Assembly (NCBI GenBank): GCA_040219085.1
Contig: JAVJTC010000028.1
Coordinates: forward strand, 1-64,000
Source: Acidimicrobiales bacterium
Lineage (GTDB): Bacteria > Actinomycetota > Acidimicrobiia > Acidimicrobiales > JAVJTC01
Length of the DNA: 64,000 nt
Direction of reading: 5' to 3'
In this document: positions 41,228 to 44,491 of the stretch, one piece after another
How the letters are laid out: each line of letters begins with the position of its first letter
Numbering within the stretch: position 1 is the stretch's first letter
Position numbers and translations under genes: made by a program
Notes under the pieces: generated by a model
Told to the model about the DNA's origin: nothing
The model's database searches: none
Seen by the model: only the letters and a program-made list of their open reading frames with translations

Positions 41228-42011
41228 CGTCGAGGAATGACGAAGTCACGAGACTGCCACCGACGCTGACTGGGGCCAAGAACTACCGGGCCTCACCCAG
41301 GCCTCGGTGCATCGGTTCTCGAAAGGATCCCAGCGAATCGATGTCAACATCTGGCCGCCGGCTCCACGCTGCAACTGTTGAGGACTGCGCCGTTGACGGA
41401 ACACTGAGGGCGCAGGACACTTGACCCGTAGGTCGCCGAACGCCTCAACCACTCCAACCAAGTGAGGCTGTGTTGGGTTCTCATCCTGATGCCAAGGACA
41501 CGATCAGATCCAACCGTTCGACTCCCCGCTCGGGAGAGCCGGAGTCAGCGAGGGCTACCACTCCGAGCTGCTTGAGTAGGTTGCGCACCTTCGTCCTGCG
41601 ATGTCTCCAAGCAGACATGAGCCAAACAGACATCGGCGTTGCCGAAGACGAGCCGGCGACATGGTCGACGCCTGGGCTCTCAGAATGGCGGGGCCTCGAC
41701 CCTTAGTCTCGACGAGGCCGAGTGCGACCAAGGCGCTGTCCACGTCGCACGGACGCTGTCGTAGGCTCGTGTCGGACAATCGGTCTTGTGCGACGTCGTA
41801 CAGGAACATCTCCAGCGCTTCGAAGAGGTCGTGGATCTCTCCTGCACTTATCCACTGGTGACCGGTGGTGCCGTATTCATGGCCTGAGCTGGGAAAACGA
41901 GAATCCGGGTTGTCTGCCGCTGAGCGCGGATCATCCCTACTCCGAGGCGAAGGTAAGGACGGAAGTAGGGATCAGCGAACTCGAACGTCCACGCCGATTA
42001 CCGTGGGCCCG
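41228..42011. other. non-coding junction at the end of the catabolic island
   Basis: About 780 bp without a convincing gene. A minus-strand frame in the second half (open from about 41970 down to 41555) has protein-like stretches (HEYGTTGHQWISAGEIHDL, FEALEMFLYDVAQD) but no good start and a non-conserved-looking end, so it may be the remnant of a gene. TACCGT at 41999-42004 is a likely -10 box for the gene starting at 42012. Confidence 0.45.
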
Positions 42012-42587
42012 ATGACGCAAGCGGGGCAGTTGTTTGCGGATGGCGATCGTCCTCCCAAAGGATCCTGGGCGATTCGCCTCGCCGGGCGGCGAGTAATCGT
42101 CACCGAGGTGTTCTGGTCGTACTGGAACCTCGCCGCCGAACGCCAAGCAGTGTTCTTCCGGCGCGCACACAACCGACCCGCCCCCTGGACCTCCGACCCC
42201 GTCATCGCGCGTCCCCGGTTCACGAACGCGTACCGCGCCTCGGACCGCGTCAGTCAGTATCTCCTCCACAACGTCATCTACGACGAGCCCCGCACCGCCG
42301 CCGACACGATCTTTCGGACGCTGCTCTTCAAGATCTTCAACAGAGCCGACTCTTGGGAACACCTTGTCGCCGCGGTCGGCGAACCGACCGCCGCCTCGTT
42401 CGACGCCCGCCGCTACGCCTGCGTCCTCGACGAACTCATCGACAACGACCGGCGCGTCTACTCTGCCGCCTACATCATGCCGAACCCCCAACTCGGCTTC
42501 GCTCGTAAGCACCACAACCACCTCGCCCTCATCCATGAGCTGCTCCGAGATGGAACGATCGGCCAGATTGAAGCGCCCCGGGATTGA
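42012..42587 (+). CDS. DNA-base-hypermodification-type protein (hmdU DNA kinase helical domain), 3' end lost to IS3
   Basis: A 191-residue frame whose residues 25-180 match the helical domain of proteins annotated as 5-hydroxymethyluracil DNA kinase or nucleotide-kinase-domain proteins, found in phages and mobile islands. Conserved stretches are FWSYWNLAAERQAVFFRR, PWTSDPVIARPRFTNAYRASD, RVSQYLLHNVIYD, FRTLLFKIFNRADSWEHL and SAAYIMPNP...RKHHNHLALI. Full-length relatives, as I remember them, continue about 100 residues. Here the frame runs 19 bp into the left inverted repeat of the IS3 element and stops. ATG at 42012 lies 8 nt after TACCGT, so a leaderless start is likely. It is probably inactive. 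Confidence 0.75.
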   Translation: MTQAGQLFADGDRPPKGSWAIRLAGRRVIVTEVFWSYWNLAAERQAVFFRRAHNRPAPWTSDPVIARPRFTNAYRASDRVSQYLLHNVIYDEPRTAADTIFRTLLFKIFNRADSWEHLVAAVGEPTAASFDARRYACVLDELIDNDRRVYSAAYIMPNPQLGFARKHHNHLALIHELLRDGTIGQIEAPRD

Positions 42588-42612
42588 TGCCGCGTCTTTC
42601 TGAGTTGGAAGG

Positions 42613-42933
42613 ATGCGAACTATGCCGAAGAAGATCGATCCGAGGGTCAAGGAGCGCTGCGTGCGTCAGGTCCTCGACCATCTGCAGGAGTACTCGTCGT
42701 TGACGGCGGCCGCGGAGGCTGTCGCCCGACGCGAGAACGTCGGGAAGGAGACCGTGCGCCGCTGGGTGATCCAGGCCCAGATCGATGGCGGCCAACGCCA
42801 GGGCCCGACGTCGGAGGAGCTGGCCGAGATCAAGGAACTCAAGGCCAAGGTCCGGCGTCTCGAGCAGGACAACGAGATCCTGCGACAGGCATCGATTTTC
42901 TTCGCGGGGGAACTCGACCCCCGCGACCGTTGA
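42613..42933 (+). CDS. IS3-family transposase OrfA
   Basis: A 106-residue protein with an N-terminal helix-turn-helix (LTAAAEAVARRENVGKETVRRWVIQ) and a C-terminal leucine-zipper-like coiled coil (AEIKELKAKVRRLEQDNEILRQ). It binds the element ends. OrfB lies in the -1 frame. Near the end of OrfA a TTTTC run (42896-42900) is followed by a perfect 8-bp stem with 7-nt loop (42903-42925), which could promote the programmed -1 frameshift that makes the OrfAB transposase in this family. The slip site is not a classical A6G heptamer, so the TTGA start/stop overlap at 42930 may matter as well. Confidence 0.88.
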   Translation: MRTMPKKIDPRVKERCVRQVLDHLQEYSSLTAAAEAVARRENVGKETVRRWVIQAQIDGGQRQGPTSEELAEIKELKAKVRRLEQDNEILRQASIFFAGELDPRDR

Positions 42934-43901
42934 TCGTGGCGTTCATCGACGAGATGCGCGCCCAGGGCCACGCGGTCGAGTCGATCTGTCGAGTCCTCAC
43001 CGAGCAGGGCTGCCAGGTCGCCGCGCGGACCTACCGGGCCTGGAGCCAACCCGCCCAGCAAGTGGCGGCCCGCACACTCAGCGACGCGCTCGTCGAGGCC
43101 TGCGTCCGCGACCTGGCCTGGACCGTCACCGACGACGGACGCCGCCAACTCACCCCCGAAGGCCTCTACGGACGTCGCAAGATGCTCCGGGCCGTGCGCC
43201 ACTCGATCCCTGACGCCACGCCGGGTGCGGTCGATCGGGCCATGCGCAGCCTGGGCCTGGTAGGTGTCCGACGGGCCAAGGGGATCCGAACGACGATCCC
43301 GGCCAAAGACGGCCGCCGAGCCGGTGACCTGTTGAACCGGGACTTCACCGCCCCAGCACCCAACAAGAAATGGGTCATGGACTTCACCTACGTCCGAACC
43401 TGGACCGGGTTCACCTACGTCGCGTTCATCGTCGACGTGTACGCCCGCCGGATCGTGGCCTGGAACGCCGCCACGTCCAAAGACACCGACCTGGTGATGG
43501 CGCCGCTGCGCATGGCGATCTGGCAACGCGACCGCGACGGCCACCCGATCGTGCCCGGCGAGCTGATCGGCCACGCCGATGCCGGGTCGCAATACACCTC
43601 GATCCGCTTCACCGAGCACCTCGACCTCGAAGGCGTCCACCCCTCGATCGGCAGCGTCGGCGACGCCTACGACAACGCGCTCATGGAGTCCACGATCGGC
43701 CTGTTCAAGACCGAGTGCATCCGCACCACCGTGTTCCACGCCGGCCCCTACCGGACCCTCGCCGACGTCGAGTACGCCACCGCCGGCTGGGTCGACTGGT
43801 ACAACAACCGGCGCCTCCACAGCACCCTCGACTACGCCACCCCCATCGACTACGAACAAGCCCACTACGCGACCCTCAACCGAGAGCCGCAACCCGCATA
43901 A
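42930..43901 (+). CDS. IS3-family transposase OrfB (DDE integrase domain)
   Basis: A 323-residue catalytic frame. The N-terminal half has the HTH_21-like segment (YGRRKMLRAVRHSIPDATPGAVDRAM). The rve core has the first Asp in WVMDFTYV, the second in HADAGSQYTS, and the Glu in DNALMESTIGLFKTECI, so the DDE triad is intact. The end (TAGWVDWYNNRRLHSTLDYATPIDYE) is typical. It would be made mainly as an OrfAB fusion by -1 frameshifting, since its only start codon here is TTG at 42930. The element looks capable of transposition. Confidence 0.9.
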   Translation: MIVAFIDEMRAQGHAVESICRVLTEQGCQVAARTYRAWSQPAQQVAARTLSDALVEACVRDLAWTVTDDGRRQLTPEGLYGRRKMLRAVRHSIPDATPGAVDRAMRSLGLVGVRRAKGIRTTIPAKDGRRAGDLLNRDFTAPAPNKKWVMDFTYVRTWTGFTYVAFIVDVYARRIVAWNAATSKDTDLVMAPLRMAIWQRDRDGHPIVPGELIGHADAGSQYTSIRFTEHLDLEGVHPSIGSVGDAYDNALMESTIGLFKTECIRTTVFHAGPYRTLADVEYATAGWVDWYNNRRLHSTLDYATPIDYEQAHYATLNREPQPA

Positions 43902-44277
43902 GAGCGGCAGAGAACCTGGGGCGCTTCACGGCGTCGAGGTCCTCGCTGGTGTGTTGAGTTGTTGCGTCCGCGACGATCCCGAGGAGGAGGCTGACGCGGG
44001 TGCGGATCCAGCGCATCGTTGACGGCGGCGCACCCGCGAACTCGTAGATGCCCCGACGGACCCGCCTGACCCTGCCCCGGCGGATCTCCCACCGCAGGGA
44101 GTCTGAGATGAGCTTGGTGGGAGCGCCCGGAAGGTGTACCCCGCGGCGCGCGACTGTCTTGGCGAGCTCGTGAAGGCTGACGGGTTGGTTCGCATCCGCC
44201 AGGCACACGACCAACACGTGCCTCAGGCCACGTCCGCGCAGCTCACCTCGCTTCGCATGGTCGATATCGACTCTCAT
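43876..44277 (-). CDS. small winged-helix-like protein, 3' end replaced by IS3 sequence
   Basis: A 133-residue minus-strand frame. Residues 1-116 or so are outside the IS; the last ~17 (KRPRFSAALMRVAALG) are encoded by the IS right end. The native part contains QPVSLHELAKTVARRGVHL and SDSLRWEIRRGRVRRVRRGIYEF, a pattern seen in small AbiEi-like or winged-helix proteins, but I do not recognise a named family. Whether much of the original C-terminus is lost is unknown. It lies on the other side of the IS from the hypermodification-type gene, so both may come from one disrupted mobile locus. Confidence 0.55.
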   Translation of the reverse strand: MRVDIDHAKRGELRGRGLRHVLVVCLADANQPVSLHELAKTVARRGVHLPGAPTKLISDSLRWEIRRGRVRRVRRGIYEFAGAPPSTMRWIRTRVSLLLGIVADATTQHTSEDLDAVKRPRFSAALMRVAALG

Positions 44278-44349
44278 GCCGCCAGGTTGGCCGCAGCCTG
44301 TGACATCGGTGCCTGCCGTGTTCGCACGCCACCAGGACGGGCCACTCGA

Positions 44350-44483
44350 ATTCGCTATGACACTGCTCGGAAACGGGGTCGGGGACGAACGGCCGGATTC
44401 GCTATGACACTGCTCGGAAACGGGGTCCGGGCCGAACGGCTGGATTCGCTATGACACTGCTCGGAAACGGGGCCCGGGCCGCG
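44350..44483 (+). repeat. 47-bp tandem repeat, nearly three units
   Basis: Units begin at 44350, 44397 and 44444, each starting ATTCGCTATGACACTGCTCG and continuing GAAACGGGG; the last parts differ at a few positions and the third unit is cut at about 44483. The array lies between the start of the small minus-strand gene and the stop of the nitrilase-type gene. There are no spacers, so it is not CRISPR. The unit is not a multiple of three and does not look coding. Confidence 0.9.
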
Positions 44484-44491
44484 TCCAGAGC

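Follow-up and report, generated by a model that had tools for sequence, protein, structure and literature searches.

Several described systems bear on the operon discussed here. According to passages of one study, CapH and CapP control bacterial immune operons through ssDNA (PMC13373217), and in another, phosphorylation of phage 5hmdU DNA is described as preceding its further modification (PMC6449724). A third work assigns 5-hydroxymethyluracil-kinase and thymidylate-synthase domains to E. coli defence systems that were validated experimentally; MazG, MazG-C, and aGPT-Pplase domains belong to systems that it predicts (PMC13092281). We analysed a half-gene of the HMUDK_hel family that abuts an IS3 element in a 64,000-nucleotide stretch of bacterial DNA, hereafter the window, and compared it with intact relatives and their neighbouring genes. 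The half-gene probably no longer works, and we read it, with a probability of roughly 0.75, as the remnant of a damage-inducible, probably anti-phage operon for nucleotide or base modification that was lost through an IS-associated deletion.

The half-gene and its IS3 junction

The window ORF (Table 1) was assigned to HMUDK_hel by a Pfam profile search that returned an E value of 1.8e-50 and 172 bits, where the cut-off is 25; phrog_2396 matches as well (E 1.5e-26), and the family match is far beyond chance. Residues 31–186 align to profile positions 1–157 of 281, so that the complete domain is not found in the window protein and 124 positions are missing. Read through its stop in a whole-genome search, the ORF covers positions 1–167. 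That search yielded a single HMUDK_hel match in the window genome (a draft of 3.77 Mb in 45 contigs, 96.4% complete), no second, 3′ piece of the gene elsewhere in it, and no match in 14 control genomes.

Table 1. Coordinates of the half-gene, the IS3 element, and neighbouring features in the window
Feature	Position	Strand	Basis or remark
HMUDK_hel 5′ half-gene, probably a dead fragment	42012..42587	+	PF18723 profile match, 191 aa
Gene-derived codons 1–186	42012–42569	+	codon 186 straddles the IS junction
IS3-family insertion sequence	42569..43928	+	terminal inverted repeats and transposase; one copy in assembly
IS3 orfA (HTH_Tnp_1)	42613..42933	+	PF01527 1.3e-5; NF033516 5.6e-10, part of model
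IS3 orfB, DDE transposase	42930..43901	+	PF00665 2.5e-20; NF033516 4.7e-68
IS3 terminal repeats	42569–42593 / 43904–43928		25 nt, 80% complementary
Upstream stretch with database matches	41818–41972		within minus-strand frames 41558–41997
ORF overlapping the IS3 right end	43876–44277	-	133 aa
Tandem repeat	44347–44490		47-bp unit, three copies

The gene-derived codons align to the 368-residue homologue of locus L064, the last of them to residue 186. Across 58 intact homologues 61 alignment columns are invariant; the window copy keeps 28 of the 29 that fall in the retained half, and the other 32 are gone from it. The missing half includes the invariant GPGA loop and a helix pair at L064 residues 192–218, whose helix-turn-helix-like arrangement in the predicted structure suggests a helix-hairpin-helix. 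Differences between the window gene and L064 number 61, 42, and 111 at the three codon positions, and because they concentrate at third positions the half-gene still looks protein-coding and long under selection; the break is probably not an old one. Every homologue measured for length (67, from the 80 loci introduced below) has at least 333 residues, in a sample of best-scoring relatives that under-represents short homologues, and the remaining loci have no ATG or GTG start before the domain. None, then, has exactly the length of the window protein; intact homologues of that length, like the lack of a significant family hit, are what the initial annotation had said would refute it, and neither was seen here. 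The search of the order produced two further partial matches among its 15 (G228:C270 and G188:C81), so fragments of the gene exist elsewhere too. Judged by its sequence, the window ORF is probably a non-functional fragment and an ordinary IS-associated gene ruin.

The element at the break is assigned to IS3 because of its transposase and terminal repeats, not because of a target duplication. Its orfB scores 230 bits against NF033516 (cut-off 160), overlaps orfA, and lies in the -1 frame relative to it, and the element sits within a 123-kb contig. The last five codons of the half-gene (EAPRD) and its stop, 42570–42587, are sequence of the left terminal repeat. The initial annotation was thus right about the family, the missing 3′ part, the IS3 element, and the end of the reading frame inside its repeat. 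IS3 elements are expected to produce target-site duplications of 3–5 bp, with some members lacking one. No duplication was found at this element, whose flanks read ...CCAGAT on the left and CGGCGT... on the right, and this absence suggests a later deletion at the IS3. A search for the ancestral intact site showed that the DNA of 41240–42560 matches relatives mainly across the gene itself, and the right flank (43929–44490) gave only short or weak matches to other genomes.

The surrounding DNA has features of its own. G+C falls to 0.62 at 41–42 kb. DNA immediately 5′ of the half-gene has a 74% match in G190:C32 (E 9.9e-19) and further matches in G138 and G052; in G190 (L171) the matched DNA lies just past two ORFs that, judged by eye, we take to resemble an AbiEi/AbiEii toxin-antitoxin pair, and the window copy looks like a frame-broken remnant. 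The ORF overlapping the right end of the IS3 has an AbiEi antitoxin match that falls below the cut-off (E 0.039). The 35-nt core of the 47-bp tandem unit is 94–97% identical to the first copy, and a 30-base piece of the unit (≤3 mismatches) occurs genome-wide only at those three places. Pieces of mobile or defence genes seem to have accumulated between 41.2 and 44.5 kb.

Relatives and their operon

HMUDK_hel is carried by 13 of 298 genomes of the order, including the window genome, which is the sole member of its family in the genome collection. Same-order bacterial genes reach 71% identity over 160 residues of the retained part. Identity to the window protein is 28–50% for matches on 20 plasmid records, and 13 of these fall at 44–50%. 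Relatives occur in 296 phage records at E ≤ 1e-5, the best being 34% identical to the window protein; 31 relatives lie on viral contigs, the best 49% identical to L064. A contig scan with the 191-residue fragment alone as query gave no confirmed match. The named loci counted below are the best 80 of at least 551 confirmed relatives, ranked by similarity to one Acidimicrobiia protein, and this ranked selection means that the operon frequencies below are not unbiased; several of the 80 contigs are short, and several of the loci are order loci that were used for building the profiles.

A tree of 91 N-terminal regions, with bootstrap values that are not fully settled, places the window gene in a clade of 16 rows (support 99/95) made up of same-order or Acidimicrobiia rows along with a Balneolia MAG and a second MAG that has no name beyond 'bacterium'. 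Most of the named rows are Acidimicrobiia, and the gene of G233, a genome of the same order, is identical over the compared region to one from Acidiferrimicrobium sp., in keeping with the actinobacterial host proposed initially. Merging duplicates leaves 12 other loci, two of which end at contig edges, giving 10 that are testable. In nine of these (partial in L027) the first gene recognised downstream, in the same orientation, is a thymidylate-synthase-fold gene. The exception is L026, whose gene is 89% identical to that of L064 and has no synthase or CapP-like gene nearby. Intact copies with neighbours in related genomes, to which the initial annotation had pointed as a check, do occur, and because the HMUDK_hel gene comes first in this clade, the window IS3 sits where the remaining operon would follow.

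The fullest close relatives (L064, L066, and L057) begin with HMUDK_hel, the thymidylate-synthase-fold gene, and AcpS (phosphopantetheinyl transferase) and continue with a CapH-like repressor, a CapP-like metalloprotease, a papain-like C1 protease, and a MazG/MazG_C pyrophosphohydrolase. Taken together, the Pfam and PADLOC scans of the same-order operons L028 and L064 recognise AcpS (PF01648), a CapH-like repressor, a CapP-like protein that bears a chagasin-like inhibitor segment, a protease of the papain family, MazG with MazG_C, and HMUDK_hel. PADLOC matched capH and capP in all four operons tried (L028, L064, L041, and L040), with E values of 1.1e-15 and 2.7e-17 in L028 and 1.2e-14 and 1.2e-17 in L064; the HTH protein of the Streptomyces plasmid L040 matched RmrA (1.7e-11) better than capH (2.3e-7). 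The HMUDK_hel, synthase-like, MazG_C, and C1 proteins that were also submitted to PADLOC had no listed match.

Among the best 80 of at least 551 relatives, profiles for the synthase (ts), CapH-like (hth), and CapP-like (imm) proteins match together within 7 kb at 51 loci. Counted singly over the same distance, ts was found at 54, hth at 54, imm at 53, maz at 54, acps at 32, acp at 28, and dcd at 21; beyond 7 kb, where many loci have little sequence, two hth and one imm matches were added. When the count is restricted to the 46 loci flanked on each side by at least 6.5 kb, ts occurs at 34, hth at 34, imm at 33, maz at 32, acps at 23, acp at 21, the C1 protease at 15, and dcd at 14, with maz alone at eight and no recognised partner at two. 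Across the order, MazG_C is present in nine of 298 genomes, all nine among the 13 HMUDK_hel carriers (hypergeometric p about 1.6e-14, a value that ignores relatedness).

Carriers of the operon span Actinomycetota, Pseudomonadota, Cyanobacteriota, Planctomycetota, Acidobacteriota, Myxococcota, Verrucomicrobiota, and others, and comprise both plasmids and long chromosomal contigs. Seven plasmid stretches contain versions of a single gene set comprising an acyl carrier protein (or a small protein instead), an HTH protein, an ImmA/IrrE protease, thymidylate synthase, HMUDK_hel, and an NTP pyrophosphohydrolase; a holo-ACP synthase is additionally present in two of the seven sets, and in the Streptomyces plasmids the thymidylate synthase gene is annotated as hypothetical. 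Other plasmids carry HMUDK_hel in different gene settings. Decay is seen elsewhere, with partial synthase and MazG matches in L027 and a MazG split into two frames in L025 and L057. No description of the operon was found among the matches listed in titles and abstract beginnings of the open-licence literature.

Some further loci are worth recording in their own right. Short HMUDK_hel pieces occur in L035 and L036, and the gene is annotated as two pieces in the Acinetobacter plasmid L044. In the sphingomonad plasmids L019 and L038 it directly follows an exonuclease-domain/dnaQ gene and shortly precedes the plasmid dnaE, with one opposite-strand gene between HMUDK_hel and dnaE in L019, a setting unlike the main operon. 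TIR-domain genes lie near it in cyanobacterial, Parabacteroides, Sinorhizobium, and haloarchaeal plasmids (L021, L045, L046, and L047), and in L021 it also stands beside a CBASS-type phospholipase gene. In Brevibacterium phage LuckyBarnes (L022), genes for thymidylate synthase and two glycosyltransferases lie upstream of HMUDK_hel (4.6e-68), a group that is likely a thymine-modification cluster.

The window genome yielded none of the partners sought. Searching the window with six L064 operon proteins by tblastn (E ≤ 0.05) recovered only the HMUDK_hel gene itself, as did a ten-profile hmmsearch at 1e-3. The genome-wide search covered the synthase-like, MazG, and MazG_C proteins: synthase-like and MazG homologues were not found, in searches run without a positive-control genome, and MazG_C was not found while nine other genomes of the order matched, so that the window genome has HMUDK_hel without MazG_C.

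Predicted folds and the kinase label

PF18723 is described as '5-hmdU DNA kinase, helical domain', and plasmid records annotate the gene as 'nucleotide kinase domain-containing protein'. None of the 58 intact homologues contains the Walker A motif GxxxxGK[ST], and in the L064 and L021 proteins no domain other than HMUDK_hel exceeds its cut-off. The kinase label is misleading because these stand-alone members have no P-loop motif; for them it is probably a misnomer, and the name probably belongs to a partner domain of some phage proteins rather than to HMUDK_hel. The initial designation as a 5-hydroxymethyluracil DNA kinase-type gene therefore stands as to family and is probably misleading as to kinase.

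An AlphaFold2 model of the L064 protein, a helical protein, has a mean pLDDT of 90.5 and a pTM of 0.88. Its closest solved fold is PUGT, the 5-PmdU glycinyltransferase of phage PaMx11 (Z 11.1 over 225 residues, rmsd 3.9, 11% identity), and its top Foldseek match has an E value of 0.036. Next come the queuosine salvage enzyme DUF2419 (Z about 10) and HhH DNA glycosylases (≤8.6), which may share with it only a general helical arrangement. Matches to viral models include aGPT-Pplase clade-1 proteins (1.6e-8 and 4.8e-6), the SP10 5-hmdU DNA kinase (637 residues), and PhiW-14. Together the model comparisons hint at a resemblance of the HMUDK_hel fold to amino acid:DNA transferases. The proposal that profiles of both HMUDK_hel and aGPT-Pplase might match thus held for the former; the window protein had no aGPT-Pplase profile match up to E = 1 in a search whose HMMER filters drop many weak matches, and that group is touched by the fold matches of the intact homologue. 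A sequence search of solved structures gave nothing significant.

The synthase-like protein was modelled with a pLDDT of 90.5. Foldseek matched it to thymidylate synthase (E 1.3e-10) and the CMP hydroxymethylase MilA (6.8e-10) with TM scores of 0.5–0.57, and Cys195, invariant in 41 rows, is presumably the nucleophilic Cys of the thymidylate synthase superfamily. PF00303 scores 13.1 bits on the L028 protein and 14.2 on that of L064, under its cut-off of 24.3, and the L040 and L041 proteins were not among its matches. The alignments used for modelling comprised 58 of 63 full-length rows for HMUDK_hel and 41 of 44 for the synthase-like protein.

Origin of the fragment and comparison with known systems

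Most likely, an IS3-associated deletion removed the 3′ half of the window gene together with all downstream operon genes. We infer such a deletion because the IS3 lies at the break and no target duplication accompanies it. The operon itself would have been present earlier in the window genome, where no other operon gene is now detectable in the window. Alternatively, the gene may have stood alone, as L026 lacks nearby synthase and CapP-like genes, and have been stand-alone cargo cut by IS3 insertion and deletion; the two partnerless and eight MazG-only loci among the 46 well-flanked ones point the same way, and against them stands the synthase gene next downstream at nine of the 10 testable loci of the window clade, which makes this account unlikely. 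A mis-join at a repeated IS3 would fit a 45-contig draft whose break falls exactly at the IS3 end, yet the element is single in the assembly and internal to its contig, and no separate 3′ half was found, so an assembly artefact is highly improbable.

Two further readings concern what the fragment is. An origin in hypermodified-thymine phages, by way of a prophage or a phage-like element, draws on the many phage and viral-contig relatives, on the viral structural matches that include SP10 and PhiW-14, and on the Brevibacterium phage in which HMUDK_hel stands beside thymidylate synthase and glycosyltransferases. Phage matches nevertheless reach at best 34% identity to the window protein, against 71% for same-order bacterial genes, and the gene belongs to a bacterial clade with operon context; on these comparisons of identity and clade we consider a phage source very unlikely and rejected it. 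Where the initial annotation saw a trace of a phage-like or DNA-modification locus, it is the second term that we retain. A function for the shortened protein, for instance as a DNA-binding inhibitor or regulator, could be argued from a frame open up to the IS3 and a well-conserved retained half. Such a role is scarcely credible for a protein that has lost more than half of the invariant residues (32 of 61), the helix pair and GPGA loop among them, and whose length recurs in none of the 67 measured homologues.

Under the preferred reading, a remnant of a damage-inducible modification operon, the parent system could work as follows. ssDNA arising from damage or infection would activate CapP, and active CapP would cleave CapH and derepress the operon. 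The synthase-fold enzyme would hydroxymethylate or otherwise substitute C5 of a pyrimidine nucleotide, while the nucleotide pool would be shaped by MazG/MazG_C or, where the operon takes another form, by a dCTP-deaminase-like protein. The HMUDK_hel protein might then add or move a group on that nucleotide or on DNA, with the acyl carrier protein perhaps delivering the group transferred. The outcome would be modified or poisoned nucleotides or DNA that hinder phage, or a marking of DNA. More specifically, though we regard this as a doubtful conjecture, the parent operon could be a cellular, DNA-damage-derepressed counterpart of phage thymine hypermodification, in which an AcpS-charged ACP supplies the group that HMUDK_hel attaches to a synthase-made C5-substituted pyrimidine, either within DNA or while still in the nucleotide pool, to serve as a weapon against phage or a mark of host DNA; the window would record the loss of that operon via the IS. 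None of the proposed system works in the window.

The fragment is ordinary, and the point of interest is its recurrent, little-studied parent operon, which combines enzymes that modify nucleotides with a carrier-protein module and a regulator of the damage-responsive type. If the reading is confirmed, bacteria would possess inducible systems for base or nucleotide modification whose protein families phages employ to disguise their DNA.

Among known systems, those of DefensePredictor use the same domain vocabulary, and the passages compared do not mention ACP/AcpS or CapH/CapP (PMC13092281). Measured against the family itself, the window protein corresponds to the first part of the HMUDK_hel profile. 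The SP10 5-hmdU DNA kinase is much longer, whereas intact bacterial members have no P-loop motif; we take its extra part to be the kinase. PUGT (gp46 of PaMx11), of the aGPT-Pplase group, provides the best solved fold for an intact homologue at low identity, but it is a phage protein, whereas the HMUDK_hel relatives sit in a bacterial operon, and a shared chemistry is predicted only. With respect to CBASS, the annotations of the plasmid stretches name no CD-NTase; one stretch, L044, has an adenylate/guanylate cyclase-domain gene. As in the CapH- and CapP-controlled immune operons, CBASS and others, the operons of intact relatives carry CapH-like and CapP-like genes, which the window does not; what sets them apart is the payload under that control, here nucleotide-modifying enzymes together with AcpS/ACP.
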